Shown here: one piece after another, positions 2,267-31,689 of the stretch | Numbering within the stretch: position 1 is the first letter of the stretch | Layout of the letters: each line of letters opens with the position of its first letter | Virus record (IMG/VR): IMGVR_UViG_3300017991_000236 | Coordinates: 1 to 36,512 of that record | Direction: 5' to 3' (one strand) | DNA length: 36,512 bases | Origin: a virus | Notes under the pieces: generated by a model | Told to the model about the DNA's origin: nothing | Databases searched by the model: none | The model's input: only the letters and a program-made list of their open reading frames with translations | Translations under genes and position numbers: made by a program

Positions 2267-2283
2267 AGGCGGCCCTATTGACC

Positions 2284-2308
2284 GGGCGGCCCAACGCCTG
2301 GGCCGCCC
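2284..2308 (+). other. Intergenic hairpin without U-tract
   Basis: A perfect 10-bp stem (GGGCGGCCCA at 2284-2293, TGGGCCGCCC at 2299-2308) with a five-base loop lies 18 bases after a stop codon. No T-run follows; the next gene's AAGGAG site comes about 10 bases later. It is more likely to stabilise or insulate messenger RNA than to end transcription. Confidence 0.7.
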
Positions 2309-2330
2309 TGCAGAAAACAAGGAGAAAACT

Positions 2331-3689: not shown

Positions 3690-3706
3690 CGCCGGGCCTT
3701 TAGACA

Positions 3707-3746
3707 AGCCGCTGCCCCAGGCCGCCACGTGTGGCTTGGGGCGGCT
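3707..3746 (+). other. Intergenic hairpin containing the recurrent 12-mer
   Basis: An imperfect stem joins AGCCGC-TGCCCCA (from 3707) with TTGGGGCGGCT (to 3746), with GCCACGTGTGGC (3724-3735) at the apex. Only a short ATTCTCTC follows, so termination would be weak. It separates the annealing protein from the exonuclease and probably tunes downstream expression. Confidence 0.6.
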
Positions 3747-3768
3747 AGATTCTCTCAAGGAGTGAACT

Positions 3769-4860: not shown

Positions 4861-4877
4861 GGCAAAGGAGCAGAGAC

Positions 4878-5063
4878 GTGTCTTTGGCTGTAGTAATCGC
4901 AATCGGTTTTCTGTTGGCGTGCGCGGGAGCCTTGGGCCTTGCCGGCCTTGGAATGGGCATCGAGATCCGCGGCACACTTTCGATCCAAACGGAGCGCCGG
5001 GCCGTGGTGGTGAACTATGGCGTGGGCCTCGCTGGCCGGCCAGCGTGGCAAGGAGCGCGATAA
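4878..5063 (+). CDS. Small membrane protein, 61 aa
   Basis: Start GTG 4878 is chosen because AAGGAG (4865-4870) is seven bases upstream; an ATG at 4830 in the same frame lies inside the previous gene. Residues 2-25 form one hydrophobic helix (LAVVIAIGFLLACAGALGLA), followed by a short polar tail of about 35 residues. It begins the run of membrane genes that surrounds the FtsK-like translocase. The stop overlaps the next start (TAATG). Function unknown. Confidence 0.65.
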   Translation: MSLAVVIAIGFLLACAGALGLAGLGMGIEIRGTLSIQTERRAVVVNYGVGLAGRPAWQGAR

Positions 5064-5254
5064 TGCCGCTTTACTACTGGGACGGAGATATACACTGGGT
5101 CCGGTTCTGGAAACTGGGCATCGCGTTGGCCGGCAATCGCCGCGGCTTTTGCGTGGCCTACTTGGGCCGCCCGCCCGGCAAGGGCATGCCGGCCCTTGCT
5201 ATCCGATTCTGGCCGCCACGTGTGGCCATCGATAACTTTGAAGGGAAGGTGTAA
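5063..5254 (+). CDS. Hypothetical small protein, 63 aa
   Basis: ATG 5063 shares its first base with the previous TAA; AAGGAG lies at the end of the previous gene. The protein is short, aromatic and basic (MPLYYWDGDIHWVRFWK at the start) and has one modestly hydrophobic stretch but no clear membrane helix. A copy of the recurrent 12-mer GCCACGTGTGGC (5215-5226) is inside the coding sequence near the end. I do not recognise it. Confidence 0.6.
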   Translation: MPLYYWDGDIHWVRFWKLGIALAGNRRGFCVAYLGRPPGKGMPALAIRFWPPRVAIDNFEGKV

Positions 5255-5257
5255 GCT

Positions 5258-6058
5258 ATGGAATTCTATATGGAGCGACCGCGCAAACCGTGGAACGACT
5301 GGCGCATGTGGAGCATGCTTGTGCCTATCATGGTTTCTGCTGTAGGCTTTTTCGTCACGGGCGTGTTCGCGTTCGCCTTTAGCGACATCGAGGTTATACC
5401 CGCGCCCGTGCAAAGTGTGCTCGTTATCGTAGGCTCGGCCCTTATCATCTTTGGTGCCGAGTTGAACACGCCCTTTGCGGCCATCGAGGTGTTCCGCAAG
5501 ATTTTCACCAAGGAGGCCAACACTTGGGATTTCTCGGCCCTGGTGGTGTCCTTGGTGGGCACGGTCATCAACCTGCTTGTAACCTTTGCAAGCCGGCTAA
5601 CCATTGACCCGGCTTGGCGGCTTTTTATCCTCAACTGGGGACCGCTTTTGTCCGGCTTTGCCGTGGCGTGCGACTACTATGGCGCGCTCGTGGAACTGGG
5701 CTTTTTCTTTGGCTCCTATGAGATGCGCATGGCCACGTACATCGAGGAACGACGGCTTTTCACGGCACGCAAGGCACAGACCGCGCAAGCGGAGCCGACT
5801 GCAGAACACGAGGCGCCTGCAACCAAGGGCACCGACCAGAACCTGGGCAACCCGGCCAGCTGGCCCGCGGGCACGTTGGAGCTATTGACGGAAACGATCT
5901 TGCCCGGCATGAATGGCGAGGCGGCCACGCTTACCCGGCAAGGCTTGGCCGACGCCTATGCCAAACACGGCCACAAGCTCCCGAGCCCGAGCACGGTCAA
6001 GAGGCACCTAAAGGTCGCCCACACGTGGCACCAGGAGGCCGGCACCGATGAAGCGTAA
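5258..6058 (+). CDS. Four-helix membrane protein with C-terminal HTH-like domain, 266 aa
   Basis: It starts at ATG 5258, with GAAGGG upstream. About four transmembrane helices are visible (roughly residues 17-42, 48-68, 92-112 and 122-152), then a charged linker rich in Ala, Glu and Thr (about 165-205), then a soluble end. That end includes LTRQGLADAYAKHG and SPSTVKRHLKVA, which look like a helix-turn-helix. A membrane core joined to a cytoplasmic DNA-binding-type tail resembles actinobacterial plasmid transfer/Spd-type proteins in layout, but I cannot show homology. The FtsK-like gene 0.7 kb downstream supports a job in tethering DNA to the membrane. It overlaps the next gene by 11 bp. Confidence 0.7.
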   Translation: MEFYMERPRKPWNDWRMWSMLVPIMVSAVGFFVTGVFAFAFSDIEVIPAPVQSVLVIVGSALIIFGAELNTPFAAIEVFRKIFTKEANTWDFSALVVSLVGTVINLLVTFASRLTIDPAWRLFILNWGPLLSGFAVACDYYGALVELGFFFGSYEMRMATYIEERRLFTARKAQTAQAEPTAEHEAPATKGTDQNLGNPASWPAGTLELLTETILPGMNGEAATLTRQGLADAYAKHGHKLPSPSTVKRHLKVAHTWHQEAGTDEA

Positions 6059-6629
6059 GGCACGCAAGCAAGGCCAAACACTGCGAACGGCTTGGTGGGT
6101 CTTTTTCTACGTCCATCCTCGCTATGGCCGGCCTGGCAAGCCCGCGCGGGTTACGTGGTATCCGCCCGGCATGCGGGCACGTGCGGCCTGGCTGGTCGTG
6201 GTGCTTGTGGCTGTGGCCGCGAGCACGGGCCTCCAAGCGGCCCGCCTCTTGGACGAGGTTATGCTGTGGGAACACTGCAAGGCGAACGGATACGATGACT
6301 GGTATATCGGCCGATGGCCCTGGTGCATTGACGCCGAGACTGGCCGGCACGTGCCGGCCCACATAGATGGGAGATGGCAATGGCTAAAAAGCAAAGCCGG
6401 CAAGATGCTCCGCGTCGACGCGGAGGGTTCTTTGGGCCGCGTGACCAAACCGAAATCATCCACAGAGGGGAGCGCACCGACCCGCGCGCCGTCCTTGCCA
6501 CGTGTGGAGCCTTTGCCTTGGTCCTATGCATCGCGGCCTTGTGCGTCTATGGCGTGGCGGCCCTTTGGCAAGACCGGCCAGGGCGATGGTTCGCGGAGCA
6601 CTTCCGCGGCTTGGCCACGGCTTGGATAG
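6048..6629 (+). CDS. Single-pass membrane protein; C-terminal end uncertain
   Basis: ATG 6048 follows AGGAGG within the end of the previous gene. The frame is open for 193 codons. The first 110 residues look real: a basic N-terminus, one transmembrane segment (about residues 44-66) and a Trp/Cys-containing stretch (HCKANGYDDWYIGRWPWC). The rest is Ser/Pro/Arg-rich, without the protein-like character of the first part, and lies on top of the gene starting at 6380 in another frame. Either two genes truly overlap by 250 bp, or translation shifts -1 near 6380-6390, or there is a sequence error. The exact C-terminus should be treated as open. Confidence 0.5.
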   Translation: MKRKARKQGQTLRTAWWVFFYVHPRYGRPGKPARVTWYPPGMRARAAWLVVVLVAVAASTGLQAARLLDEVMLWEHCKANGYDDWYIGRWPWCIDAETGRHVPAHIDGRWQWLKSKAGKMLRVDAEGSLGRVTKPKSSTEGSAPTRAPSLPRVEPLPWSYASRPCASMAWRPFGKTGQGDGSRSTSAAWPRLG

Positions 6630-6799
6630 TGAGCCTGGGCCTTGGGGCATTGCTGGCCGCCTTTGTGCTGTTCTATGAAGCAATCGATCCAAACTGGCCG
6701 CCCCCACGCTCGGCAGTTCACACGCCCTTGATGCTGTTCCCGTTTGGTAAGGACCGCGGAGGTACAGACTATGACGTGGATTCGTACGAACTATCGTAA
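6380..6799 (+). CDS. Two-helix membrane protein, 139 aa
   Basis: I prefer ATG 6380 because GGGAG (6369-6373) lies six bases upstream; ATG 6374 touches that site. After a basic, Arg-rich N-terminus the protein has two clear membrane segments, AVLATCGAFALVLCIAALCV (about residues 38-57) and WIVSLGLGALLAAFVLFYEA (about 83-103), then a short tail. It overlaps both the previous gene's open end and the start of the FtsK-like gene (by 29 bp). It forms part of the membrane cluster; no family recognised. Confidence 0.6.
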   Translation: MAKKQSRQDAPRRRGGFFGPRDQTEIIHRGERTDPRAVLATCGAFALVLCIAALCVYGVAALWQDRPGRWFAEHFRGLATAWIVSLGLGALLAAFVLFYEAIDPNWPPPRSAVHTPLMLFPFGKDRGGTDYDVDSYELS

Positions 6800-8324
6800 G
6801 CTCATGGTGGGCTTTGTGGCCTTTGACGTGCTGGCCTTGACGGCCTTGGCCTTTCTGCTCTTGGTCGAGAACGCCACGGGCCTCCGGCTTTGGCTCGCCT
6901 ATGCGTGGGCCGGCCTTTGGACGTGGCGTACACTGGGCCGGTTCTTGAGCGTGGCGCTCGTGGCCGTGGTGCTTTTCTTCCTCGGCTTGCCGGTCTATGA
7001 TGCCTTGTTCCAACGCAAGGCCCGCGCGGACAGGCACGCGGTCAAGATGGAGCACATGCGCACGCAAGCGGCCCACGCCCGGACGCGACAGCTGGCCGCG
7101 CCCGATTTGCGTGGCGGCTGGACGGCCACAGTGGACCCGGCCCGGCCCGGTTGGCTGGACCTTGAACAGCTGGATACCGAGCAGGACCGGCTACTTGCGG
7201 CCCTTGCTCAAGCCCGTGGTGGGTCACGTGGCCCACGTGGGCCAGCTGGCCCGCTCCTAGAGGCCGACAACGCGCCCACGCTGCCCACGCTGGTCCGCCC
7301 GGAGGAACTACTGGGCGAAGTGATTACCTATCGGGACATGCCCTTGGGCATAGGCCCGGAAGGCGTGGTGCGTGGTGACCTTGTAAAGTTCGTACACTGG
7401 GCCATAGCCGGGTCATCGGGTTGGGGCAAGAGCGCCCTTATGCGTTGGCTTGCCTATCTGCTGGCCATGAGCGTGGACCCCATCGACCTTGTTTTGATCG
7501 ACTTGGAGGATGTCACGCTGGCACCGTTTGAAACCGCGCGCAATGCCAAGTATCCCGTGGCCCGTGATGAGCGGACCATCTTGGCCGTGTTGCGGGCCTT
7601 GCTTGGCGAAGTTGAACGCCGGAGCGAGCTTTTCGAGGTATACCGCGACCGTGGCGTGGACAGCTTGGCCCGCTACAATGCCGTATCCGAGGACCGGCTT
7701 GCGCCCGTGGCCGTGCTCATTGACGAGGCCGCGGCCTTGATGCAGAACGCAGATGTGCGCGATGCCATCATGCCGGCCCTTTGGCGGTCGCGCAAGTATG
7801 GGATCTTCTACCTGTGCGCGGCCCAGGTTTGGTATGCTAACACTATCGACAGCCGGGCCGCGACCCAGTTTGGCACGGCCACGCACTTCCACGCGGAAAA
7901 GGCGAGCCAGGGCCGGGCCTTGGGGATGCCCGAGGCCGCCGACATCAACGTGCAAGGCCGGGCCATCCTGCGCATGCCGGGCCGGGCCAACATGATGATT
8001 CAAACGCCCCTTATCACGGAACGCCACATGCGCCAAGTCCGTGGCGATGGGCCTATGGAACTCGAGTACCCGACTTTGATGGCATGCACGCCCGCCGAGG
8101 CCAAGCGGCTGTCCGGGCACGACCCGGAGGCCGAATACCTGGCCAACTTGCTGGCCTCGCCCTTGGCCGGCCAAGTCCAGGCGGCTATGGCGGACGGAGC
8201 GGCCAACCCAAGCCAAGTGTGCAAGGCCCTCGGCAAGTCTGCCGGAGGCAAACCGTATACAGACATCAGTATGCTTTACAAGCATTTCGCCACTTCTACT
8301 TCTACCGAAGGCGTGGCCCAGTAG
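6771..8324 (+). CDS. FtsK/SpoIIIE-HerA type DNA translocase, 517 aa
   Basis: Start ATG 6771 is set by GGAGGT (6758-6763) seven bases upstream; an in-frame TTG at 6744 has no such site. Two or three N-terminal membrane helices (about residues 12-32, 40-52 and 58-76) precede a linker and a motor domain with Walker A GSSGWGKS (214-221) and Walker B VAVLIDEAA (D318, E319). This is the order seen in FtsK/SpoIIIE and Tra-type proteins, hexameric motors that pump double-stranded DNA across or along membranes. The last 50 residues (NPSQVCKALGKS onward) may be a small DNA-binding module like the FtsK gamma domain. Such genes are common in conjugative plasmids and rare in siphoviruses, pointing to plasmid-like maintenance or transfer. 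Confidence 0.85.
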   Translation: MTWIRTNYRKLMVGFVAFDVLALTALAFLLLVENATGLRLWLAYAWAGLWTWRTLGRFLSVALVAVVLFFLGLPVYDALFQRKARADRHAVKMEHMRTQAAHARTRQLAAPDLRGGWTATVDPARPGWLDLEQLDTEQDRLLAALAQARGGSRGPRGPAGPLLEADNAPTLPTLVRPEELLGEVITYRDMPLGIGPEGVVRGDLVKFVHWAIAGSSGWGKSALMRWLAYLLAMSVDPIDLVLIDLEDVTLAPFETARNAKYPVARDERTILAVLRALLGEVERRSELFEVYRDRGVDSLARYNAVSEDRLAPVAVLIDEAAALMQNADVRDAIMPALWRSRKYGIFYLCAAQVWYANTIDSRAATQFGTATHFHAEKASQGRALGMPEAADINVQGRAILRMPGRANMMIQTPLITERHMRQVRGDGPMELEYPTLMACTPAEAKRLSGHDPEAEYLANLLASPLAGQVQAAMADGAANPSQVCKALGKSAGGKPYTDISMLYKHFATSTSTEGVAQ

Positions 8325-8356
8325 CACGCCGGGCCGGCTTTTGGTAGTAGTAGAAG
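8293..8356 (+). other. Long inverted repeat spanning the FtsK-like stop codon
   Basis: CTTCTACTTCTACC (8293-8306) pairs with GGTAGTAGTAGAAG (8343-8356) with one mismatch in 14. Within the 36-base interval a second stem, GGCGTG with CACGCC, forms around the TAG stop, followed by GGGCCGGCTTTT. The result is a nested hairpin at the gene's end. It could end or attenuate transcription or protect the messenger; a transfer or partition site is conceivable because it sits at a translocase gene. Confidence 0.65.
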
Positions 8357-8386
8357 AATCACGCCCAACACAAAGGAGCAGACCCG

Positions 8387-8821
8387 ATGAAAAAGACAAC
8401 CTTTATCCGCGGAACCGTGGCCCTGGTCGTGCTGGCCGCCCTGGCGGCCTTGGTTGGCTGTAACCCAAAGGACGCCGGGCCTACAGCTGAAGAACTGTTC
8501 TTGGCCCAGTTGGCCACGCAGAAGGAAGGCTACATTGCGCAACAAAAGGACGCCGAGGCGCGCGTGGCCGAGGTCATCCCGGACGCCATTGCCGAAACGT
8601 ACAAGGGCAAAAGCATCTTGGAGATCGCAGAGGCCGAAGGGCACAATAGCCGGCTCATGACCATCACGCTGGCCCGGTTGGCCACGTCGGAGCTTGACGC
8701 CCGCGAATCGTGGCGCGAGTTTGTCCAGACCACAGTATGGGCCTTGTGCGCCATTGCGTTCTTGGTGCTCTTGATCGTCTTTATGGTCACGAGTGACGCC
8801 AAGGCCAAAGGGCACCGATGA
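8387..8821 (+). CDS. Lipoprotein with C-terminal membrane helix, 144 aa
   Basis: ATG 8387 follows CAAAGGAGCAGA, the leader shared with the genes at 1325 and 4878. The N-terminus is a lipoprotein signal: basic MKKTTFIR, hydrophobic core, and lipobox LVGC with Cys25 as the predicted lipidated residue. A charged helical region (about 33-105) follows, then a second membrane segment (about 113-135, WALCAIAFLVLLIVFMV) and a basic tail. The middle part would lie outside the membrane and the C-terminus inside. It closes the FtsK-like membrane cluster and overlaps the next gene by ATGA. No family recognised. Confidence 0.7.
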   Translation: MKKTTFIRGTVALVVLAALAALVGCNPKDAGPTAEELFLAQLATQKEGYIAQQKDAEARVAEVIPDAIAETYKGKSILEIAEAEGHNSRLMTITLARLATSELDARESWREFVQTTVWALCAIAFLVLLIVFMVTSDAKAKGHR

Positions 8822-9141
8822 TTCGCATGGGCCGGGAAGGCGGCCTTGTGGTGGTCCTGGATCGAACCATCCAGGCCACGGGCCGCACCATCAAGGGAGT
8901 GAAGTATTATAGCGCGCGTTGGGCCATGAGCGTCAACCCGCTCGGGCGCATCGTGGGCGTCCGTCGCAGATGGGAAGGCCGGCAGTACAGACAGCGCACG
9001 CTATGGTATCGCGTGGAGCCAGTGGACCCGCGTGCCGGCTTTGGTGAACTCGTGTTCTATCCGAAGCAATTGCGCCGGCCCACACGCGAGGAAATCCGGG
9101 CCGCTGTAGAGGCCGGCCTTGTGCACGAGCCGGACAAGTAG
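8818..9141 (+). CDS. Hypothetical basic protein, 107 aa
   Basis: ATG 8818 overlaps the preceding TGA. The protein is basic and beta-rich in feel, with many Arg residues (VRRRWEGRQYRQR, residues 48-60) and no membrane segment. The end (PTREEIRAAVEAG) is helical. It is the last gene of the rightward operon before the convergent intergenic region. Positive charge would suit nucleic-acid binding, but nothing more specific is visible. Confidence 0.6.
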   Translation: MIRMGREGGLVVVLDRTIQATGRTIKGVKYYSARWAMSVNPLGRIVGVRRRWEGRQYRQRTLWYRVEPVDPRAGFGELVFYPKQLRRPTREEIRAAVEAGLVHEPDK

Positions 9142-9163
9142 GGCCGCGGCCCGGCCACGTGTG

Positions 9164-9189
9164 GGCCAAGGTAAATCCCAAGTATATCC
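9164..9189. repeat. 26-bp imperfect direct repeat, copy 1
   Basis: This segment matches 9441-9466 at 22 of 26 positions in the same orientation; both begin GGCCAAGGTAAA and end GTATATCC. The two copies flank the GGCC-free part of the intergenic region. The overlap with the ATCCCAAG iterons suggests that the second copy is a degenerate version of the same binding array. Confidence 0.7.
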
Positions 9190-9203
9190 CAAGTTATCCC
9201 AAG
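9175..9203. repeat. Three iteron-like ATCCCAAG repeats
   Basis: ATCCCAAG occurs at 9175-9182, 9186-9193 and 9196-9203, with 11- and 10-bp periods, so all copies face the same side of the helix. This is typical of binding sites for an initiator, partition protein or repressor. It lies 34 bases past the last rightward gene. No initiator gene is visible in this window. Confidence 0.7.
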
Positions 9204-9209
9204 GCCCAT

Positions 9210-9242
9210 CACGGGCGGCCCGGCCACACGTGGCCGCCCGTG
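9210..9242. terminator. Strong intergenic hairpin, possible terminator
   Basis: CACGGGCGGCC (9210-9220) pairs perfectly with GGCCGCCCGTG (9232-9242) around an 11-base loop that contains CCACACGTGG. It lies 69 bases after the last rightward stop. No T-run follows directly; TTTTT appears 20 bases later. It is likely to end or attenuate the early transcript and could act in both directions. Confidence 0.6.
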
Positions 9243-9358
9243 AGCGGGCCATAGATCCCCACTTTTTGCCCTCGAATCTGAAAGGTTATCTTGCACCTAG
9301 TCTCTTGTGTTACGTCTCGCACCGTCGCTTCCATCCATCGCTACGTCTCTATGTCGTC

Positions 9359-9410
9359 TGTGCGCGATTCTAAGAGATTTGACTTTCCATACAGCGCACA
9401 AAAATCGCGC
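9359..9410. other. Overlapping alternative inverted repeats
   Basis: TGTGCGC (9359-9365) can pair with GCGCACA (9394-9400), while the overlapping GCGCGATT (9362-9369) can pair with AATCGCGC (9403-9410). The left arms share four bases, so the two stems are mutually exclusive. This would suit a switching RNA or a cruciform, inside the GGCC-free segment. No promoter for such an RNA is convincing. Confidence 0.45.
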
Positions 9411-9440
9411 CCGCGCGCCCCACGCAAAAGGCCCGATTCT

Positions 9441-9466
9441 GGCCAAGGTAAAATCTAGGTATATCC
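9441..9466. repeat. 26-bp imperfect direct repeat, copy 2
   Basis: Partner of 9164-9189 (22 of 26 identical). It is followed after three bases by the second copy of the 18-bp repeat TTGGATGCACGTACAAAA. The flanking of a compositionally distinct segment by direct repeats is reminiscent of a replication or recombination region. Confidence 0.7.
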
Positions 9467-9469
9467 GGC

Positions 9470-9487
9470 TTGGATGCACGTACAAAA
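9470..9487. repeat. 18-bp direct repeat, copy 2
   Basis: Exact copy of 985-1002 in the same orientation. It overlaps the A-run (9484-9489) that supplies the U-tract of the leftward terminator, so part of the match could reflect terminator function, but TTGGATGCACGTAC does not. Confidence 0.85.
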
Positions 9488-9518
9488 AAGACCGGCCCAC
9501 GCGCAAGGCGTAGGCCGG
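9484..9518 (-). terminator. Terminator of the late operon
   Basis: Read on the minus strand, CCGGCCTACGC (9518-9508) pairs with GCGTGGGCCGG (9502-9492) through one G-U pair, with a five-base loop, followed within two bases by TTTTTT (9489-9484). It lies 29 bases after the stop of the gene at 9547 and marks the end of the leftward late transcript. Confidence 0.9.
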
Positions 9519-9546
9519 CCACACCAGGGGCGGAGCGTGCCCCTTG

Positions 9547-9951
9547 CTATTGCGGGTTCGGCTTGGTTGCCTTCCGCGTAAGGTCGGCCAAGCCATAGCC
9601 GACCGCGATAGCCTCACGAACTGCCATGCTGGTCAACGCCTCGAACGCGCCCATAACCGTGGCCAGCAGAACCACGTAACCGACCGCCGAGGCCAAGAAC
9701 GTGGTGATGTACTGTGGCTCGAAGCGCGGCCACGCGGCCCAGGATTTCTCAGCGTTCACGGCCTTGAAGCCGGCCAGCAGATACGGGATGAACGCGCGCC
9801 CGGCCACGCCGGCCACGAGGCCCACGAGGGTCGGCCAGCTGGCCGCCCAGTCCAGGCCGGGCCGGGCATCGGCCGAACAGCCGGCCAAGAGCAAGGCCAG
9901 CAAAAGCGGCACGCCCAACACGAGCACATAGTACCGAACACGACGCGACAT
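9547..9951 (-). CDS. Membrane lipoprotein, holin-like candidate, 134 aa
   Basis: ATG at 9951 is preceded by AAAAGGAG, which overlaps the end of the previous gene. An N-terminal signal ends in lipobox LLAGC (Cys25), followed by a hydrophobic segment (about residues 40-62) and another (about 82-108), and a short basic tail. It is the last gene of the late operon, after the hydrolase and the XhlA-like protein, a usual place for lysis functions. A small multi-helix membrane protein here could be a holin; a lipidated one would be unusual. No sequence family recognised. Confidence 0.6.
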   Translation of the reverse strand: MSRRVRYYVLVLGVPLLLALLLAGCSADARPGLDWAASWPTLVGLVAGVAGRAFIPYLLAGFKAVNAEKSWAAWPRFEPQYITTFLASAVGYVVLLATVMGAFEALTSMAVREAIAVGYGLADLTRKATKPNPQ

Positions 9952-10646: not shown

Positions 10647-11501
10647 CTATCTGGGCCACTCCGGCCAGTCCAGCGTCGGCCGAAGCGCCGGGAGCCAGTC
10701 GGCCAACGTTTCTTCCATCACTTGGCGGATTTGCGCATAGGTGCAACCCGGCCCGCCACTGCCGGGACAATCGCGGGCACAGTCCACGCCTGGGCATTCT
10801 TGGCACGGGCAATCTGTTTCACAGTCACACGGGCCGGGCGTGCCGGGATCCTCGACCAGCGTGAGGGCACACTGGTCCAAGTATGTGGTCTGTGCTTCCT
10901 TGGTTGGCCAGCGTGGGTTAGAGGCCGCCGCGACCACGATGTGGTCGCCCCACGCTTGGGCGACAACCCGCATCCTCACCCACTGGTCTTGTTCCTGGTT
11001 TTCCTCGCCCCAAACCATTTGTCTGTCGAACACGCCCGCGCCCCACGGCTGGATTCCCACGAACATCGCCGGGCCGCCTGGCGGGTTGCTTTTTAGAAGC
11101 ATGTTACAGCTGAACTCATACCACTGGCCACGCTGAACGGCCACACGTTGATAGATGACGCCGAAATTGCGGCTATACGTGGTGAACCATCGTTGGCTGT
11201 ACTGGCCATCTGTGCGGAGGTGCTCTTGCTGCTCCGGCTTGTATTCTGGCCTGTGGCAGGGCGCTTTACACCAAGGATGGTCGCCCTCCAAGTATGCCTC
11301 CGTCCAACCGTTGGCCACTTCCACTTCCGACGCGCCCCCACGCACCGAAAAGCCGCCCTCGAACGACGGATTGACGAGCGTGGCCAATGGGGGCGGCATG
11401 GCCGCAACCTTGGCCGGCCAAGGCCAAAGGCCCACGGCCAACGACAAGGCGGCCACGCAGATGGCCAGCAAGGCCCAGGTTCTGCTACTTGGCTTCTTCA
11501 C
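10647..11501 (-). CDS. Anchored beta-sandwich (CBM-like) protein with Cys-rich segment, 284 aa
   Basis: I choose GTG at 11501, since GGGAG lies about eight bases upstream; an ATG at 11537 lies inside the previous gene. Residues 6-29 form a signal or anchor helix. A domain from LVNPSFEGGFSVRGG (about 42-56) to about residue 215 has the look of a carbohydrate-binding beta-sandwich, as found in secreted bacterial proteins. A striking Cys cluster with eight cysteines follows (C225-C253), then a short helical tail. It is probably displayed outside the cell or on the virion and may bind cell-wall or capsule sugar. It overlaps the hydrolase gene by 17 bp. Confidence 0.65.
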   Translation of the reverse strand: MKKPSSRTWALLAICVAALSLAVGLWPWPAKVAAMPPPLATLVNPSFEGGFSVRGGASEVEVANGWTEAYLEGDHPWCKAPCHRPEYKPEQQEHLRTDGQYSQRWFTTYSRNFGVIYQRVAVQRGQWYEFSCNMLLKSNPPGGPAMFVGIQPWGAGVFDRQMVWGEENQEQDQWVRMRVVAQAWGDHIVVAAASNPRWPTKEAQTTYLDQCALTLVEDPGTPGPCDCETDCPCQECPGVDCARDCPGSGGPGCTYAQIRQVMEETLADWLPALRPTLDWPEWPR

Positions 11502-25032: not shown

Positions 25033-25335
25033 CTATAGGCCCTTTTCCTCGTCGGTCCAGTCCTCCGGCCAAACGTGGTCCGCGGCTATAGGCCCAGTAT
25101 CGCTCACGTAGAACGCCCAAGTATCGTCGCGGTTCTTGTGGCACGTAACCCAAAGCCGCCCCTCGTCGCCTGCGTTGGAAATGGCCCGGTCGATGGTGCG
25201 CTGTACCTGGCTTTCCGAACGGTTGGCAAGGGCCTGGTCGAACTCGTAATGCCGGCCATCATAGTCGAACTCGATGGCCGGCAACGTTGGATGTAAGGCC
25301 GCACGCCTTGAAACGACGCGCCCCAAGCCCGGCAT
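25033..25335 (-). CDS. Hypothetical protein, 100 aa
   Basis: ATG at 25335. A small acidic protein with a beta segment (PAIEFDYDGRHYEFDQALA, residues 19-37), a helix and a second strand region (LWVTCHKNRDDTWAFYV). The end is acidic (PEDWTDEEKGL). There is no signal or membrane segment. Position among head and connector genes suggests a structural accessory; I recognise no family. Confidence 0.6.
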   Translation of the reverse strand: MPGLGRVVSRRAALHPTLPAIEFDYDGRHYEFDQALANRSESQVQRTIDRAISNAGDEGRLWVTCHKNRDDTWAFYVSDTGPIAADHVWPEDWTDEEKGL

Positions 25336-25338
25336 AGT

Positions 25339-25956
25339 TTAGCTCCCGGCCGAAACGGTTAGCTCATAGGTGAATTCGATGCTATCGCCGTTCACCACGT
25401 TGACCGCCGAAAACACTGTGCGGTCCATAAGCTCGCCGGAGGTGCTGGCATTGAACACGCCATGCTCCGTGATGGCTTTGGTGGTGGTATAGCTGATGGT
25501 GCCGACGCTTTTATAGATGTTGGCGCTCGCGCCCTCGGTTTGCGTGCCGGTTGCGCGGCTTTCGCCGTCCGTGGTTTCCATATCGGTGTCGCCCACGGCC
25601 TCGGCAGTGGTGCCCACGCCCGAATCGTGATACTTGAAATCGCCCCAGGTGCTGTCTTCCGCTTGCAACTGGTCCACCATCTCGTTCACAAAGGCCGTGG
25701 TCACCACGCGATAGCCGGCCAAGCCGAGATCCACCACTTGGCCATCATAGCCGATGAACCGGGCGCGCAATGCGCCCAAGAGCACCGGATGGCCGGTCCA
25801 CGCGGAAACGAGCCGGGCCGTGTGGTGCTTTGCCCAACCCAGGAGGAACGCGGGCCGGCTGTAGTTCTGCAGTCGCCACAAGGCCGCGTTCGTGGAGCGC
25901 TTTGCCCGGTTGTGCTTTACGCCCAGGCTCCCGCGCATAGAAAGTTCGCTCTGCAT
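25339..25956 (-). CDS. Conserved phage structural-type protein, 205 aa
   Basis: Start ATG 25956 is set by AAGGAG seven bases upstream; an ATG at 25983 lies in a hairpin before that site. The product has a basic N-terminal part and then a beta-rich part with many Thr/Ser/Gly residues, including STWGDFKYHDSGVGTTAEA (about 125-143). That composition is common in virion decoration or fibre-base proteins. Its exact role is not readable; head decoration is my best guess. Confidence 0.6.
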   Translation of the reverse strand: MQSELSMRGSLGVKHNRAKRSTNAALWRLQNYSRPAFLLGWAKHHTARLVSAWTGHPVLLGALRARFIGYDGQVVDLGLAGYRVVTTAFVNEMVDQLQAEDSTWGDFKYHDSGVGTTAEAVGDTDMETTDGESRATGTQTEGASANIYKSVGTISYTTTKAITEHGVFNASTSGELMDRTVFSAVNVVNGDSIEFTYELTVSAGS

Positions 25957-25973
25957 AGGTTTCTCCTTGTGCC

Positions 25974-25995
25974 GGGCGGCCACAGTGGGCCGCCC
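25974..25995 (-). other. Intergenic hairpin
   Basis: GGGCGGCC (25974-25981) and GGCCGCCC (25988-25995) pair perfectly around a six-base loop, between the stop of the gene ending at 26000 and the ribosome-binding site at about 25964. No U-tract follows, so a role in message stability or attenuation is more likely than full termination. Confidence 0.65.
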
Positions 25996-25999
25996 CGGC

Positions 26000-26215
26000 C
26001 TACTTGGTTATCGTGTCCTCGGCCTTGATGGCCGTGTTGCGCGTCGCGCGCTTGCGGGCCGGCTTTGGCTTGATCTGCTCAAAGCATCCTGGCGCGTCCC
26101 GCATCAGCCAGGCCGCGTGTTCCTCGTCCGTGTCGAACTCGTGGCCCTCCGGATAGTGCTCTTGGGCGTTGGTATAGTTGGCCAACGCCCGCAAGGTTAC
26201 GAGCTTGCTCGCCAC
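26000..26215 (-). CDS. Small hypothetical protein, 71 aa
   Basis: I choose GTG at 26215, two bases after the previous stop, with GAGG about ten bases upstream; an in-frame ATG at 26248 lies within the preceding gene. The product starts MASKLVTLRALANYTNAQ, has an acidic middle (FDTDEEHAAWLMRDAPG) and a basic Lys/Arg tail. A similar small-protein pattern is common between capsid and connector genes. Function unknown. Confidence 0.55.
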   Translation of the reverse strand: MASKLVTLRALANYTNAQEHYPEGHEFDTDEEHAAWLMRDAPGCFEQIKPKPARKRATRNTAIKAEDTITK

Positions 26216-26217
26216 GC

Positions 26218-26637
26218 TTACATTTCCTCGATGTGCACGAAAACCCAACCCACGACCGAAGGCGTGGTGCCCGCGGCCCAGTCGGCATCTGTGGTCATCT
26301 TCATGCCAACCCGCTGGCCGGCTGTGATGGGATAGGCACCGCGGGCATACTGGGCCGTGTTATACGTGGTGGGGTCGTCGTCAATGACCACGCTTTGCGC
26401 CGTGGCCGTGCCGTTGATGGTTGGGTTGAGCGTCAAGGTGCCGGCTGTACGCGCGGCCTCCACGGCCACGCTCAAGCCCACGATGGAGCCGGCCCACGGG
26501 ATGGGCATCTGCCCCATATCCGTGGCCGTGGCCTCGCCCGGCATACTGAGCACGACCGCGCTCTGTGATGCCGCCGCGTTCGCAATATAGAACGGGATGG
26601 CGATAACGTTGCTTTTGTTTGCTGCCAGTTCTACCAC
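26218..26637 (-). CDS. Beta-rich virion-type protein, 139 aa
   Basis: GTG at 26637 follows AAGGAG; an ATG at 26667 lies upstream of that site and is less likely. The product is rich in Ala, Thr, Val and Ile with predicted strands throughout (NVIAIPFYIANAAAS, GSIVGLSVAVEAARTAGTLTLNPTING, and VVGWVFVHIEEM at the end, read as separate segments). It resembles small beta-sandwich decoration or collar proteins. It has no signal peptide, unlike its three upstream neighbours. Confidence 0.6.
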   Translation of the reverse strand: MVELAANKSNVIAIPFYIANAAASQSAVVLSMPGEATATDMGQMPIPWAGSIVGLSVAVEAARTAGTLTLNPTINGTATAQSVVIDDDPTTYNTAQYARGAYPITAGQRVGMKMTTDADWAAGTTPSVVGWVFVHIEEM

Positions 26638-26661
26638 TTCTGATTCTCCTTTGTGGCCCGT

Positions 26662-26675
26662 GGCCACGTGTGGCC
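26662..26675 (-). other. Intergenic palindromic hairpin
   Basis: GGCCAC and GTGGCC around GT, within the recurrent GCCACGTGTGGC motif (26663-26674), lies in the 54-base gap between the stop at 26692 and the start at 26637. GGCCCG and GGGCC flanks may extend the structure. It fits the pattern of hairpins placed between late genes here. Confidence 0.6.
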
Positions 26676-26691
26676 GCCCAACTGGGCCGGC

Positions 26692-27540
26692 CTACTTTGT
26701 TGTGATTTCGCGGCTCCCCAAAGCGTCGATCTCATAATGCACATCGAACTCTAGGATGTAGATGCCGCCCGTGTAGTTGTCTGATGCCGCGGCCTCGCGG
26801 TATAGCCGCACGGCCAAGATGCTGGATAGGCCCTCGCCCGTGCCGGCTATGCCCGAGGCCGGAAGCCCGGTTATCTCGTGATTGTAGGCCGTGTCGCCGG
26901 CCACGTTGCGCGTGACGATAGTGGTGGTGGTGATGGTTTCGCCTATGCTGGACCAGATGTACTCAAGGCCCAAGCCCACGTTCTTGGTCGACGCATCGCC
27001 CTCGGCCATCCAGTGGACGTGAGGATAGATCGTGCTGGCCGTTTTCCAGCCGTGGGGCATCTGCACGGTTAGCCATATTTCGTCATCATCATCGAACGAG
27101 TAGGCATACACGCCCGAACTGGAATTGCCATCGTCGGCCCACTGCTCATAGGTTGGCACGTTGGAGCCGGCTGTTTTGCCACGCTCCAAGGGCACGCGCA
27201 AATCTTCCCACACGGTTCCGTCGCCATACAGCTGGAGCGCATCCGTGCCGCCCAGGCGGGCCGTTTCCGTGCCGCCACTGTACACGCCAAGCCGGCCAAG
27301 GGCACCGTCCAGGCGTAGCGTTTCCGTGGCAAGGTTGTCGCTGTAGAACTGTAGGCGACCTCCGTGCCGCATATAGCTGTCGTCGGAACAGTTGATGCAG
27401 ATGCGTTCCCGTGGGGAGTTGGCCCGGCTCCCTATGTCGCCCAAGTCTACGGTCGGCTCGGGCGTCTGCCGGCATGCCACGCCAAGGCATAGCACCAGGG
27501 CCAAGGTTAGCGCCAAAGCCGGCCATCGTTTTGTTCGCAT
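26692..27540 (-). CDS. Lipoprotein with virion-like C-terminal domain, 282 aa
   Basis: ATG at 27540 follows TAGGAGG. A lipoprotein signal ends at the lipobox LGVAC (Cys23). Residues 24 to about 78 are a near copy of the next protein upstream: DLGDIGSRA, SPRERICINC (a CxxC pair) and FYSDNLAT are shared. The rest (about 115-282) is beta-rich with an aromatic HGWKTASTIYPHVHW stretch and a GIAGTGEGLSSI loop, the style of phage fibre or knob domains. The signal peptide predicts export and lipid anchoring, unexpected for a gene beside the capsid. It may mark the host surface or mask a receptor. Confidence 0.7.
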   Translation of the reverse strand: MRTKRWPALALTLALVLCLGVACRQTPEPTVDLGDIGSRANSPRERICINCSDDSYMRHGGRLQFYSDNLATETLRLDGALGRLGVYSGGTETARLGGTDALQLYGDGTVWEDLRVPLERGKTAGSNVPTYEQWADDGNSSSGVYAYSFDDDDEIWLTVQMPHGWKTASTIYPHVHWMAEGDASTKNVGLGLEYIWSSIGETITTTTIVTRNVAGDTAYNHEITGLPASGIAGTGEGLSSILAVRLYREAAASDNYTGGIYILEFDVHYEIDALGSREITTK

Positions 27541-27562
27541 AGGTGCCTCCTAGTGTGCCGGC

Positions 27563-28447
27563 CTACTGGATGCGGGTATAGACGATGTAGATGGTCGCGG
27601 CTCCGGCCGACAGCGTTTCACCGCTGGCCTCGTCCACGAGCCAATCTATGGTTTCATCGGCACCGCTTGGGGCGTAGACGAAGGCCCGGCCTCCTGCCGC
27701 GGCATCGAGGTAAGCGCCCTGCGTGGCCGGGACTTGCCCTTGCCAACCCGCGGCCCAACCCGTGCCCTCGGTGTCGCTGGTCTGTAGCTCGGCATCGGCC
27801 AGCACAAGGAAGCCATCGGCATCGTTGCCGTCACCGACGACCAGCGTAGCATCGTCGCCCGTGCAATCGAAATCCGTGGTGATTTGCGCGAAAACCGCGT
27901 GGACGAGCCAGATCTCGCCATCGCCCACAGTGAAGGCCGCGCCCGTGCCTCCTGCCGCGGCTGTATAGGTGATGCTTGTGCTGGCCACGGTCGGGAACAT
28001 AAGGTGCTCGACGCCGATGGCCGCTGTGATGTTGCCGGCTGTAAGGTCGATGTCGCCGGCCGTCATGGTAAGGTCGCCCGCTGTAACCGTGGCATCGCCG
28101 GCAGTGACGACAAGGTTGCCCGCTGTAAGTGTGGTATCGCCCGCGGCCAGCGTGAGATCTCCGGCTGTAAGGGCCAAGTCGCCCGTGGCCAGCGTAACAT
28201 CGCCACTGGACCCGCCCAAGGCCAAGGTCTGCGTGGCAAGGTTGTCGCTATAGAAGTACAGCGTGCCAGCGTGGCGCATATAGCTGTCGTCCGCGCAACT
28301 GATACAGATGCGCTCGCGTGGCGAGCCGGCCCGGCTCCCGATGTCGCCAAGATCGAAAGTAGGTTCTGGCGTGGGCGTTTTGCGGCATCCGGCCAGCAAG
28401 GCCAGCAAGGCCAGCAGAACAAAGCCCGCGCGAAGTTTGGTTTTCAC
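27563..28447 (-). CDS. Lipoprotein with nine heptad repeats, 294 aa
   Basis: GTG at 28447 overlaps the previous stop (GTGA). A lipoprotein signal ends at LLAGC (Cys21). Residues 22-80 match the N-terminal module of the gene at 26692-27540. Residues 82-144 are nine seven-residue units of the form TAGDLTL, typical of a left- or right-handed beta-solenoid or trimeric shaft in phage fibres. A beta-rich head (about 150-294) follows. Combining a lipoprotein signal with fibre-like shaft and knob is unusual and suggests a surface-anchored, phage-encoded adhesin or receptor mask. Confidence 0.72.
   Translation of the reverse strand: MKTKLRAGFVLLALLALLAGCRKTPTPEPTFDLGDIGSRAGSPRERICISCADDSYMRHAGTLYFYSDNLATQTLALGGSSGDVTLATGDLALTAGDLTLAAGDTTLTAGNLVVTAGDATVTAGDLTMTAGDIDLTAGNITAAIGVEHLMFPTVASTSITYTAAAGGTGAAFTVGDGEIWLVHAVFAQITTDFDCTGDDATLVVGDGNDADGFLVLADAELQTSDTEGTGWAAGWQGQVPATQGAYLDAAAGGRAFVYAPSGADETIDWLVDEASGETLSAGAATIYIVYTRIQ
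28016..28204 (-). repeat. 21-bp tandem repeat coding for nine heptads
   Basis: Nine 21-bp units encode GDVTLAT, GDLALTA, GDLTLAA, GDTTLTA, GNLVVTA, GDATVTA, GDLTMTA, GDIDLTA and GNITAAI in order. Units differ in codons, so the array is not freshly expanded. Slippage could still change its length between relatives. Confidence 0.85.
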
Positions 28448-28830
28448 GGTTGTAGATCCTCCATTTCTATGACCAGCTTGCCCTCGTGTACGTATAGCCG
28501 CATAGCCGGCCCATCCTCGGCCAAGCCGGCCACGGATTGCAAGCCGGCCTCGCCACTGCTATCGGCCACGTGTGGCGACCATAGCACGCTTTCGCCCTTG
28601 GTGATGACGATAATCGTGTAGGCCGGCCCTTCCTGGCCCGCTATTTCTGTCGTGTTGCCGGCACCAAGCTCGAGTTCTGCCAGGGCCGCGGCCCGCGCGC
28701 CGTCCACATCCTCGGGCGCGACACTGGCCTCCCGCGTGGCCTGGGCATCTTCCGCCCACTGGCAACCCGTAAGGGCCAGCAAGGCCAGCAAGGCCAGCAA
28801 GGCCAACACGTGCCGGTTCGGTTTCCTCAT
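28444..28830 (-). CDS. Lipoprotein, 128 aa
   Basis: ATG at 28830 follows AAAGGAG. The signal has a basic start (MRKPNRH), a Leu/Ala core and lipobox LALTGC, with Cys23 lipidated. The mature part has an acidic helix (VDGARAAALAELELGAG) and a beta-rich end (YTIIVITKGE, MRLYVHEGKLVIEMEDL). It heads the three-lipoprotein run just downstream of the capsid gene. A copy of GCCACGTGTGGC (28565-28576) lies within the coding sequence. No family recognised. Confidence 0.68.
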   Translation of the reverse strand: MRKPNRHVLALLALLALLALTGCQWAEDAQATREASVAPEDVDGARAAALAELELGAGNTTEIAGQEGPAYTIIVITKGESVLWSPHVADSSGEAGLQSVAGLAEDGPAMRLYVHEGKLVIEMEDLQP

Positions 28831-28843
28831 AGGACGCTCCTTT

Positions 28844-28864
28844 GGGCCGCCACGTGGGCGGCCC
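28844..28864 (-). other. Hairpin downstream of the capsid gene
   Basis: GGGCCGCC (28844-28851) and GGCGGCCC (28857-28864) pair perfectly around ACGTG, 21 bases after the capsid stop and directly before the next ribosome-binding site. There is no U-tract. A hairpin here would help keep capsid expression above that of the lipoproteins. Confidence 0.65.
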
Positions 28865-28885
28865 GGCTCCCGGTTAGCCTTGCGG

Positions 28886-30310
28886 CTATACGAGGATATT
28901 GATAACGCCTGCCGTGTGCGTGTTGCTGGACCGTGTGCCGTGCGCGCCCACTGCCTCGCGGAACGAGGTAACCATCAGATAGACCCGCCGCTGGATGTCC
29001 CGATCCACTTCTACCAACACTTGACGCCGGAAGCCCATATACCACATATCGCGGTTCCACACGCTGAGCGAACCAAGCGTGTTATTGCTGGCCGTGGCGG
29101 ACAGCTTGCCGTCTGCCATAGCCAGGCCGTGGCTTGCGCTGATGATGATGGGGAAGCCGCGATAGGCGGCCAGCTGGCCGGTCAAGATGGGCGTGCTCGG
29201 GCCAAACTTGTCCAACCCGATCACATTGTCCAGGTCCAGGAATCCCTTCAAGTAGGTTTGCACGTCGCAAACCAACACGCACCGGTTCGGGTCCACGGCA
29301 TACTTGCCCATCTTGGCGAACGCGCCCAGTAGGTCGGCGTCGGCCAGGGCATCGCCTCCCGCGTCCACGGTTTGGTTCGTGTTGTCCACAATCCACTGAT
29401 GCCGGATGCCGTCTTGGCCATCGCTCAAGTAGGAGGCATCGCTGGCCGGAGCCGCGTCGTCGCTGTTCACGTTGCCCGTGGCCGTGGCCGTGCTGTCGAA
29501 GTTGAGCGCGCAATAATCGATCTGTTCCGCGCCCGACTGGGCCAAGCGTGCCCGCAAGGCCGGAGCCATCGCAATGGCCGCGTCCTCGGACAAGGTGTAG
29601 CTCCATACTTGTTCGGTGACCTGCTCGGTCGTGGTGAGCGTTACCTTGGCCGTGGCCGGAGTGCTGGCCGTGGTGGCTTGCGTCTCCGTGCCCTTGCGCC
29701 ACGTGATGGCACCAAGCCCAAGCGGCACATTGAACGGGTCCGTGGGCATGGGGATGTTCGTAATCACGCCGGCAACCCGCGAGGCCAAAAAGAAGTCCTC
29801 CCAAAGCGTGGCCGCCAAGTCCTCCGGCACAAGCTCGTCGCCCGTTGCGCTGCCCGTGCTGGTCAAAGCCTTTAGGGCGTTGTCCAAGTCGTCGCTCGGC
29901 TTGCGCACGTGTTCGTCGCCGTTCATGCGCTGGTCGAGTTGCTTGATGCGCCACTGGGCCGCGAGCATATTGCGCGCAATGTACAAGTCCACGTCCTTGA
30001 CGATTTGCCCGCCATCGCGATAAAAGCCGTCCTCGCGCATGTGCCGCACCGCGCGCGCATAGCGGTTTCCCTTGAGCAGTTCGGCCACGCCATCGCCCGG
30101 CACGTGTGCACCGATGGGTTCGCCCCTTACGGGTTGCCGGTCCATTTCGGCCTTGACGCGCGCGGCCACAAGGGCCTCCACTTGCGGCTCGAAGTGGGCT
30201 TGCACCTTTTCCCAGTCCACGGTCGCATCCTGGGGCGGATTGCCCTTGAGCCATCGCGTAAGCTCCAGAATCGCGCGCGTGGCGTCGTTGATGGTGTATT
30301 CCTCTGACAC
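28886..30310 (-). CDS. HK97-type major capsid protein, 474 aa
   Basis: GTG at 30310 follows AAGGAG; its first base is the last base of the protease stop codon (TAGTG). Residues 1 to about 130 are helical and charged, as in the delta/scaffold domain removed by the protease. The rest shows the HK97 fold pattern: SRVAGVITNIPMP, the central sheet (WRKGTETQATTAS), DLLGAFAKMGKYAVDPNRCVLVCD and a C-terminal WNRDMWYMGFRRQVLVEVDRDIQ stretch typical of the A-domain/P-loop end. About 415 copies would form a T=7 shell if standard, though T cannot be told here. Confidence 0.9.
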   Translation of the reverse strand: MSEEYTINDATRAILELTRWLKGNPPQDATVDWEKVQAHFEPQVEALVAARVKAEMDRQPVRGEPIGAHVPGDGVAELLKGNRYARAVRHMREDGFYRDGGQIVKDVDLYIARNMLAAQWRIKQLDQRMNGDEHVRKPSDDLDNALKALTSTGSATGDELVPEDLAATLWEDFFLASRVAGVITNIPMPTDPFNVPLGLGAITWRKGTETQATTASTPATAKVTLTTTEQVTEQVWSYTLSEDAAIAMAPALRARLAQSGAEQIDYCALNFDSTATATGNVNSDDAAPASDASYLSDGQDGIRHQWIVDNTNQTVDAGGDALADADLLGAFAKMGKYAVDPNRCVLVCDVQTYLKGFLDLDNVIGLDKFGPSTPILTGQLAAYRGFPIIISASHGLAMADGKLSATASNNTLGSLSVWNRDMWYMGFRRQVLVEVDRDIQRRVYLMVTSFREAVGAHGTRSSNTHTAGVINILV

Positions 30311-31689
30311 TATTCGTCTCCTTGGGGCGCATTGCGCCCGGTTGGGCGGAACCAGTCCGCCAATTCTTGGGTCAACGTTGCAAAGGCCCGTTCCAGTTCG
30401 TCCCGGCCCGTGCCGTCCACGTGTGGCGCGTCGAGCTCCTCCACTTGCAGACGCCGCACCGGGCCAACTGTAGGCCCACGTATCCGCCTGGCCAACTTCT
30501 GGCCGAGGGCGGTCATACCACTTACACAAAGCCGGCCAACCTCGTGGCCAAAAGCCTTTTCCGGCTCCGGGCCGCGTGGCAATGCCAGCAAAACGGGCGA
30601 AAGGTCGATCACTTCCCAGTCGTCCTCATCCACAAGGGCCTCGTCGGTTGTGGCCTTGGCCGAAATGCTGTACACGGCATCGTCCCAACCCCATTTCTCA
30701 TTGTGGAACGGCACGGGCGGCACAAAGGCAACCTCTCGCCGGCTGTACGTTTTGCCCGCGTCCGGATGGGGCACCTCTACAATGTCGCCGTCCTCGTTCA
30801 AGTCCAGCGTAAGGGCATCCTCCGGCACGTGCACTTCATAACCATAAAACGAGGCGAGGCACGTGTGGCGGCCCAAGTTGGTTTCCACAGTGAGCCGCCT
30901 TACCCACGCCATAGGCGGCTCGGTATCGGCCTCCATCTCGCGCAAAACAAGGTTCGGACTGTTGGCCGGCCAAGCTGGCCAAGTGTGCCACACAAAGGGG
31001 TCGTCGCTCGTGGTGCTTTGCGGGCCATACGTGGCCGTATCACTGTCAATCGTGAGGCCGTGCGTGTGCTGGCCGGCAGTGTTGGACAGCAAGGCGTCGA
31101 GGAAGGCTTGCTTGCGCTCGGCGTCCGTAAGGTTGGCCGTGCCCGGCCCAAAGGCCGCGCCCCACGGCTTGAACTGTGGCGGCATATCCTCGAACAGCCA
31201 CGCCGGGCCGATGCCCTTGGCCATTGCGCGCAAGGCGTCCGCGTTTGCGCCCACGGGCACCAAGCTCACCTCTAGGATCTCGCCGGCAGTGTAATCCAAG
31301 CCGCCTTCCGTGTTTTCCGTCCATTCCTCCGGGCGGAAACCTATGCTAAAGGCCCGGACCATTTCGGTGTCCCAAAGTAGCTTGATGATGTTCATAGGGT
31401 CGGCATCGTTGGCGATGTCGCGCCACTGTGGCACCAAGGAAAGGGCCGTGCCGGTTTGCTCGATCTCGTTGGCCCGGCCTATCACGGCATAGGGGTCCGC
31501 GTAATTGTGCCCCCATAGCAAAACCGGGTTTCGCCTATACTGGCCGATGTCGAACTGGCCGATGTGCACGCGGTCCTTGTGGCGGTCGAGGCCGGGCGTG
31601 CTCACGGTTACGCGGCCCGTGGCCGGCTCCCGCGTGATGGTGAATTGCTTGTGTACGAGGCTATTATGCCCCAACTGTGGCTTTCTCAA
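30310..31689 (-). CDS. Prohead protease (HK97 gp4/S78-like) with long C-terminal extension, 459 aa
   Basis: TTG at 31689 is chosen as AAAGGAGG lies just upstream, within the end of the portal gene; an ATG at 31746 would lie before that site. The protease core shows LLWGHNY (candidate catalytic His61), VRAFSIGF (candidate Ser115) and EVSLVPVGANADAL. Members usually stop near 200 residues; this one has a further 260, with aromatic and acidic parts (WHTWPAWPANS, VEVPHPDAGKTYS, WEVIDLSPVLLALPRGPEPEK) and a helical, charged end. The extension may be a scaffold or an inserted domain. It cleaves the capsid N-terminus during maturation. Confidence 0.82.
   Translation of the reverse strand: MRKPQLGHNSLVHKQFTITREPATGRVTVSTPGLDRHKDRVHIGQFDIGQYRRNPVLLWGHNYADPYAVIGRANEIEQTGTALSLVPQWRDIANDADPMNIIKLLWDTEMVRAFSIGFRPEEWTENTEGGLDYTAGEILEVSLVPVGANADALRAMAKGIGPAWLFEDMPPQFKPWGAAFGPGTANLTDAERKQAFLDALLSNTAGQHTHGLTIDSDTATYGPQSTTSDDPFVWHTWPAWPANSPNLVLREMEADTEPPMAWVRRLTVETNLGRHTCLASFYGYEVHVPEDALTLDLNEDGDIVEVPHPDAGKTYSRREVAFVPPVPFHNEKWGWDDAVYSISAKATTDEALVDEDDWEVIDLSPVLLALPRGPEPEKAFGHEVGRLCVSGMTALGQKLARRIRGPTVGPVRRLQVEELDAPHVDGTGRDELERAFATLTQELADWFRPTGRNAPQGDE

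Follow-up and report, generated by a model that had tools for sequence, protein, structure and literature searches.

The window, that is, the whole stretch of DNA analyzed here, is a 36.5-kb virus record whose packaging and head module lies on the minus strand. Terminase-like and portal genes are followed by a weak prohead-protease match and the major capsid protein ORF, after which come three genes designated lip1, lip2, and lip3 and then a decoration-like gene, all on the minus strand (Table 1). The sequence-only reading had described three lipoprotein ORFs in a row, ending at 28444, 27563, and 26692, within a capsid module. All three were present on the minus strand, and the label was correct, as judged by the portal, weak prohead-protease, and major-head-protein matches upstream. 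The same three lip genes were found in the near-identical contig IMGVR 3300018080_003259.

Table 1. Features of the head module around lip1, lip2, and lip3
Feature	Position	Strand	Description
Major capsid protein ORF	28886..30529	-	Putative start; directly upstream of lip1; portal, weak prohead-protease, and major-head-protein matches
lip1	28444..28830	-	128 aa, predicted lipoprotein; first gene past the major capsid gene
lip1 signal peptide and lipobox LTGC	28762..28830	-	Cys23 codon 28762-28764; SD AAAGGAG upstream; read from the translation
lip2	27563..28447	-	294 aa, predicted lipoprotein; GTG start overlaps the lip1 stop
lip2 signal peptide and lipobox LAGC	28385..28447	-	Cys21 codon 28385-28387; SD TGGAGG upstream
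lip2 membrane-proximal module PRERICISC...FYSDNLATQTL	28181..28321	-	Common to lip3 and exported proteins of other phages
lip2 shaft, nine 7-residue G[DN] repeats	28016..28204	-	Residues ~82-144, read from the translation; low AlphaFold confidence
lip2 C-terminal knob (K1), jelly-roll	27566..28015	-	Nearest folds are phage capsid cement proteins (predicted model)
lip3	26692..27540	-	282 aa, predicted lipoprotein
lip3 signal peptide and lipobox GVAC	27472..27540	-	Cys23 codon 27472-27474; SD TAGGAGG upstream
lip3 membrane-proximal module SPRERICINC...FYSDNLATETL	27265..27417	-	Sequence comparison
lip3 C-terminal domain (K5, IYPHVHW motif)	26716..27219	-	CBM-like beta sandwich, predicted
Decoration-like head gene	26218..26667	-	HMM built in this analysis for the family, which has no database name

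The intergenic gaps from the capsid gene through lip1, lip2, and lip3 to the decoration-like gene were 55, -4, 22, and 24 nt. A scan of positions 25300-30600 for sigma-70 types gave no promoter-like site (1.2 expected from shuffled sequence), and the same region had no excess of terminator-like sites (3 vs. 4.9 expected). The tight gene packing and the lack of a promoter-like site suggest that the lip genes are co-expressed with the head genes.

The N-terminal modules of lip2 and lip3, located behind the lipobox, were 70% identical over 69 aa and carried the CxxC pair as CISC in lip2 and CINC in lip3, preceded by a Pro/Thr-rich linker after the lipobox cysteine. Beyond the module, lip2 continues with heptads and a knob, and lip3 with a beta-rich domain containing IYPHVHW. 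The earlier description of a common module with CxxC and FYSDNLAT, followed by divergence into a heptad shaft with a knob or a beta-rich domain, thus held in all its parts, with nine 7-residue repeats counted in the shaft and a beta sandwich in the lip3 model. In the N-terminal parts, dN stayed below dS (0.39 vs. 1.45 for lip2-lip3 and 0.27 vs. 0.88 for lip2 and L013a, several pairs being saturated), as expected of real, constrained proteins.

None of the three proteins matched a Pfam, PHROG, NCBIfam, or PADLOC family above cut-off. The matches below cut-off, namely yeast killer toxin for lip3 (0.022), DUF4097 for the lip2 shaft (0.0012), and PepSY_MTB (3.4e-5), XAC1346 (2.4e-4), and spanin2 (0.011) for lip1, were judged to be due to chance or driven by the signal, those of lip1 all beginning in the signal. 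An outer-membrane spanin of the Rz1 type was likewise rejected for lip1, which reached only 16 bits with NF037950 (cut-off 100), in an alignment limited to its first 35 residues, and lies in the head module. Possible distant relatives of lip1 are L013b (L013 10157-10483) and L072b (L072 6401-6748). In a comparison of eight sequences, lip1 matched these only at E values of 0.004-0.015, while L013b and L072b matched each other at 2e-9.

Export signals and translation starts

In each of the three proteins, a basic n-region and a hydrophobic core precede a PROSITE-type lipobox at the cysteine given in Table 1. The lip3 lipobox carries Gly at -3, which the pattern permits but which is less typical. 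Using a heuristic detector made for this analysis, the export flag on the minus strand of the window fell on the lip1-3 ORFs only. On the plus strand, outside the head module, a fourth predicted lipoprotein (LVGC, 8387-8821) adjoins an FtsK-like gene (6744-8324) and membrane proteins.

Within the family, a Shine-Dalgarno-like motif stood before the signal-side start in 28 of 30 cases, those of lip1-3 among them, compared with 12 of 155 in-frame starts located deeper in the ORFs; L028 and L080 had none, and the start of L025 was placed one codon late in this test. A start called too early was ruled out by this result as the source of the signals. Together with the predicted signals and lipoboxes, it bears out the lipoprotein signals LTGC, LAGC, and VAC that had been read from the letters.

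The lip2 knob offered a sample that was not gathered by its N-termini. Among 18 knob proteins with intact N-termini, 17 had a lipobox, signal peptide, or signal anchor, with a net positive charge ahead of the hydrophobic core in 16 of the 17. The only signal-less one (L036:5776-6438) lies directly after a capsid-like gene and serves as a natural control for the signal. In the larger set of 31 family proteins, gathered partly by the N-terminus, there were 13 lipoboxes, 16 other signals or anchors, an anchor from about residue 32 in L029, and none in L036. The other ORFs of at least 100 aa in these loci were flagged in only 13 of 230 cases, three of them with a lipobox, and several of the 13 were themselves additional exported genes from these head modules. 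The premise that neighboring structural genes lack export signals was therefore sound, and the contrast of 17/18 with 13/230 is descriptive, since the rows are related by descent.

Alternatively, the lip proteins might be ordinary virion proteins whose hydrophobic N-terminus is a segment that inserts into the capsid or tail. The position of the genes among structural genes and the unexported homologue in L036 would fit such a segment, but a lipobox cysteine was present in 13/31 members, compared with 153 of 15500 shuffled N-termini (1%), and the positive charge ahead of the core and the Pro/Thr-rich linker behind the cysteine in lip2 and lip3 also argue against it. We consider this explanation very improbable.

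The module CxxC was found in six of nine lipoproteins and in none of eight anchored forms, a restriction expected if disulfides form outside. Moreover, three kinds of anchor on one knob lead to a single outcome, which argues for selected export. On these sequence grounds, export and membrane tethering are predicted with high confidence, and surface display, meaning a place outside the cytoplasmic membrane, is the likely location, as had been proposed. The signals of some family members look like substrates of signal peptidase I, so that these proteins may be released instead of tethered.

Relatives, domain exchange, and predicted folds

The relatives were numbered as loci (L-numbers), and the C-terminal domain types as K1-K5, both labels of this analysis. 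With the capsid protein as a query, nine loci were obtained. L013, whose capsid protein was 69% identical, had two lipoprotein genes at the equivalent place, and L008 and L009 had a signal-bearing protein with the same membrane-proximal module, whereas L007, L010, L011, L012, and L014 had the decoration gene there instead of an exported gene. The shared module as a query added L016 and L017, both with a lipobox, and the lip2 knob alone yielded 13 and then 20 loci. The export theme thus recurs in many phages with different capsid proteins.

Across these proteins the "RERI...YSD" membrane-proximal module is conserved and the C-terminal domain is swapped. Type K1 is that of lip2, K2 occurs in L013, L068, L072, L091, L127, and L130, K3 in L080, L123, and L017, and K5 in lip3, while L008 has a type of its own. 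This arrangement of a conserved membrane-proximal module with exchanged C-terminal domains resembles that of recognition proteins. In L008, similar leaders (a hairpin, then ACTTGGTGAATTTC...) lie on both sides of the exported gene, at 9366-9499 and 10918-11033, which gives the look of a cassette insertion.

A scan for the K5 motif returned 68 loci, 59 of which had a credible domain frame after nine were dropped as chance frames, some of the remaining frames being open at the 5′ end; 37 of 52 distinct K5 frames were aligned (A8). Most of these proteins had no signal. Five signals were flagged, of which that of L178, a stretch inside the domain, was set aside, while those of L174, L195, L208, and the window-like contig L006 were trusted. 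L174, an unrelated phage contig, has five signal-peptide genes in a row after capsid-like and decoration-like genes (minus-strand reading 5649-9560), the last with the K5 domain, as far as the genes could be identified by eye. In L195 (minus-strand reading 1777-5239), three successive genes with signal peptides and fibre-like sequence lie amid structural genes.

Searches of 50,697 phage records by tblastn gave no match for lip3, lip2, and the L008 protein, a K5 domain and L028c likewise matched nothing, and K2 gave two weak matches, one annotated as a tail fibre. The knob profile did not match solved chains by sequence.

The AlphaFold model of lip2 was confident for the knob only (about residues 148-294). 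Its closest PDB entries were the capsid entries KHP30 (Z 10.6, 3.5 Å over 117 residues), Pam1 (10.2), KHP40 (9.0), and GP4 (8.5), with a baseplate-tail entry tied with GP4 and the lower rows at 7.2 or less. For lip3, the model was confident for residues 108-275, and the best matches were CBM6/35/36-like sandwiches, laminin, and Cry domain III at Z 10-11. Like the CBM6/35/36 domains, which scored best (10.8-11.2), the lip3 domain is predicted to be a beta sandwich. However, the CBMs compared are parts of carbohydrate-active proteins, and Cry domain III has the same generic fold; ligand binding by lip3 is putative. As predicted, this is a generic fold that by itself gives no function, and the same applies to the lip2 knob.

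Host and candidate roles at the cell surface

Genome loci with related capsid genes belonged to Chloroflexota in 20 of 28 cases by record title, where the assignment of classes to the phylum is partly one we presume. The closest named genome relatives of the capsid protein were from Herpetosiphon (50-51%). A Chloroflexota-type host is therefore probable, and Lgt and LspA were encoded in all eight tested Chloroflexota genomes with related capsid genes.

The membrane-proximal module was found in none of 400 Chloroflexota genomes, while the same query recovered seven of ten virus records, the seven expected; the capsid was found in four of the 400. Herpetosiphon prophages with this capsid family had no exported gene, and a pattern scan of genome contigs gave no knob relative among 206 pattern matches. 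The exported class was not seen in sampled lysogens, although few lysogens of this phage group have been sampled at all. This absence fits a role in the lytic cycle and argues against lysogenic-conversion (moron) genes serving a lysogen. Morons classically include surface lipoproteins, such as Ltp of phage TP-J34 (PMC3952083), and the patchy spread of the exported genes on the capsid tree would suit such genes. With no separate promoter in the sigma-70-type scan, prophages of the same capsid family without the gene, and a module and knob unmatched in genomes, though lysogen sampling is thin, we regard lysogenic conversion as quite improbable.

The reading we tentatively prefer is that lip1-3 are recognition proteins made late and tethered to the membrane, which cover the receptors of infected cells and of debris. 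The three proteins would be translated along with the head genes, late in infection, exported by Sec, lipidated and cut by the host Lgt and LspA, and kept on the outside of the cytoplasmic membrane, in a host that is probably a member of Chloroflexota. The conserved module and a beta shaft would be followed in lip2 and lip3 by exchangeable recognition domains, a cement-type knob and a CBM-like domain, respectively, whose most likely targets are the receptors used by the phage, glycan or protein, bound in cis. Virions would then no longer adsorb to infected cells or to lysis debris, resulting in superinfection exclusion and protection of the progeny, comparable to the effect of Llp of T5 but by another route.

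The T5 gene llp adjoins the receptor-binding gene; its product prevents superinfection and presumably makes inactivation on debris less frequent (PMC4728585, PMC9586334). T5 Llp and Cor resemble lip1-3 as products of a phage lipoprotein gene next to virion genes, made in the lytic cycle, and they block receptor use (PMC4728585, PMC9586334). Unlike lip2 and lip3, they are small periplasmic proteins that act on outer-membrane transporters from inside and have no shaft or knob. By analogy, Llp of T5 may be the nearest working model for lip function. Ltp shows that an outward-facing lipoprotein can stop phages in a host without an outer membrane (PMC3952083). This protein of a Streptococcus phage differs from lip1-3: its gene is part of the lysogeny module, the prophage produces it, and DNA injection is the step it affects; no common domain was seen. 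Comparison of lip1-3 with exclusion families in Pfam, NCBIfam, PHROG, and PADLOC gave no match, such families being short and diverse.

Several observations count against receptor covering. A second copy of the knob, which would support masking of the virion's own binding site, was not found, the knob being single-copy in 12 of 12 records, and K2 was single-copy in seven of nine records and absent in two, although the records may be fragments. The knob and K2 are thus not copies of a detectable receptor-binding domain of the virion. Known exclusion lipoproteins are small, and lip2 and lip3 are larger.

The proteins might also act as adhesins of the infected cell, the knobs sticking infected cells or debris to neighbors, aiding virus spread, or altering the surface. 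A tethered fibre with predicted CBM-like or TNF-like folds is compatible with a lectin, and many Chloroflexota are filamentous, but it is uncertain that the phage would gain from this at so advanced a stage, and we consider this role improbable. If the preferred covering of receptors is confirmed, a recurrent family of domain-swapping tethered knobs in head operons would give viruses a new means of modifying the surface of a host cell as it dies. Such knobs may also point to the receptors that phages use on Chloroflexota, a little-studied phylum.

The capsid family and a possible role on the virion

The main rival to receptor covering is that the proteins are exported capsid-decoration proteins of the cement or fibre type. 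Export would serve to form disulfides, to lipidate the proteins, or to keep them safe, and they would attach to virions, or dock onto them, once lysis breaks the membrane, yielding particles that are lipid-anchored or decorated late. A virion-related role was absent from the roles listed in the sequence-only reading, and it is the cement-like knob and the decoration-gene pattern that bring it into consideration; both also speak against pure masking.

The capsid-relative survey kept 80 of 313 loci, of which L106, L110, L135, and L137-L140 break off inside the capsid gene and were not tabulated. In most relatives, the decoration-like gene lies directly 3′ of the capsid gene. After removal of the near-duplicates L086, L125, and L132, 61 relatives on viral contigs with at least 1.1 kb past the capsid gene were compared, 13 of which had a module-bearing exported gene. 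The share of exporters among the gathered capsid relatives is inflated, since alignment A5, with which they were collected, is rich in exporters (seven among ten rows). The decoration gene was missing in 7/13 exporters but in only 3/48 non-exporters. Nevertheless, the window, L013, L023, L068, L072, and L080 are exporters that retain it. On a capsid tree of 70 rows, from which 24 distant ones of the 28 tabulated genome loci and identical or short rows were left out, exporters appeared at about six places amid non-exporters, as counted by eye, and those without the decoration gene clustered. Because this clustering may reflect few events, the association was not treated as independent evidence.

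The gene slot right behind the capsid gene and the unexported knob protein of L036 in the same slot are further points in favor of exported decoration. In addition, L028:7817-8311, the third signal-bearing gene of its head module, has a mature part that matches PHROG 16194 "tail protein" at 2e-12, so that here a virion-type domain has acquired an export signal.

The lip2 knob model fits a cement-type jelly roll, with Z 8.5-10.6 to four capsid entries. Lip2 resembles the cement proteins of KHP30/KHP40, Pam1, and GP4 in this predicted knob and in the closeness of its gene to the capsid gene. It differs from these particle proteins by its export signal, lipobox, linker, and shaft, at 11-15% identity over the aligned part. 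A decoration protein made and assembled in the cytoplasm would be expected to lack an export signal, whereas lip2 and nearly all knob proteins bear signals (17/18). Jelly-roll folds are widely reused, and membrane anchors would keep the proteins off capsids before lysis. Taking both sides together, we regard exported decoration as unlikely, though worth serious consideration.

The head fibre gene of phi29, gp8.5, sits after the capsid gene, and we know of no export signal on it. Like the lip genes, it is an accessory fibre gene past the capsid gene, and the head fibre is reported to be dispensable (PMC9965433).

A more specific form of exported decoration is a two-compartment maturation of the virion, in which a second, extracytoplasmic decoration set of the head operon would meet the particles only when the membrane ruptures; this we consider rather doubtful. 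If it were true, virions would leave decorated or membrane-bound through lipid-anchored knobs, which would be a new decoration route. In the portion available of the open-access literature on signal peptides and lipoproteins in phage head or fibre genes, neither the class nor this route in tailed phages was described, which is weak evidence of absence. To our knowledge, tailed phages are thought to assemble their particles entirely in the cytoplasm, and exported proteins are rare in structural operons.

Many non-exporting capsid relatives (e.g., L007:1498-2838 and L014:9888-11369) have a gene with the sequence MKDWGKILxGTRLEKQV... after the decoration gene, which, at a guess from its sequence, may encode a glycosyltransferase plus methyltransferase.
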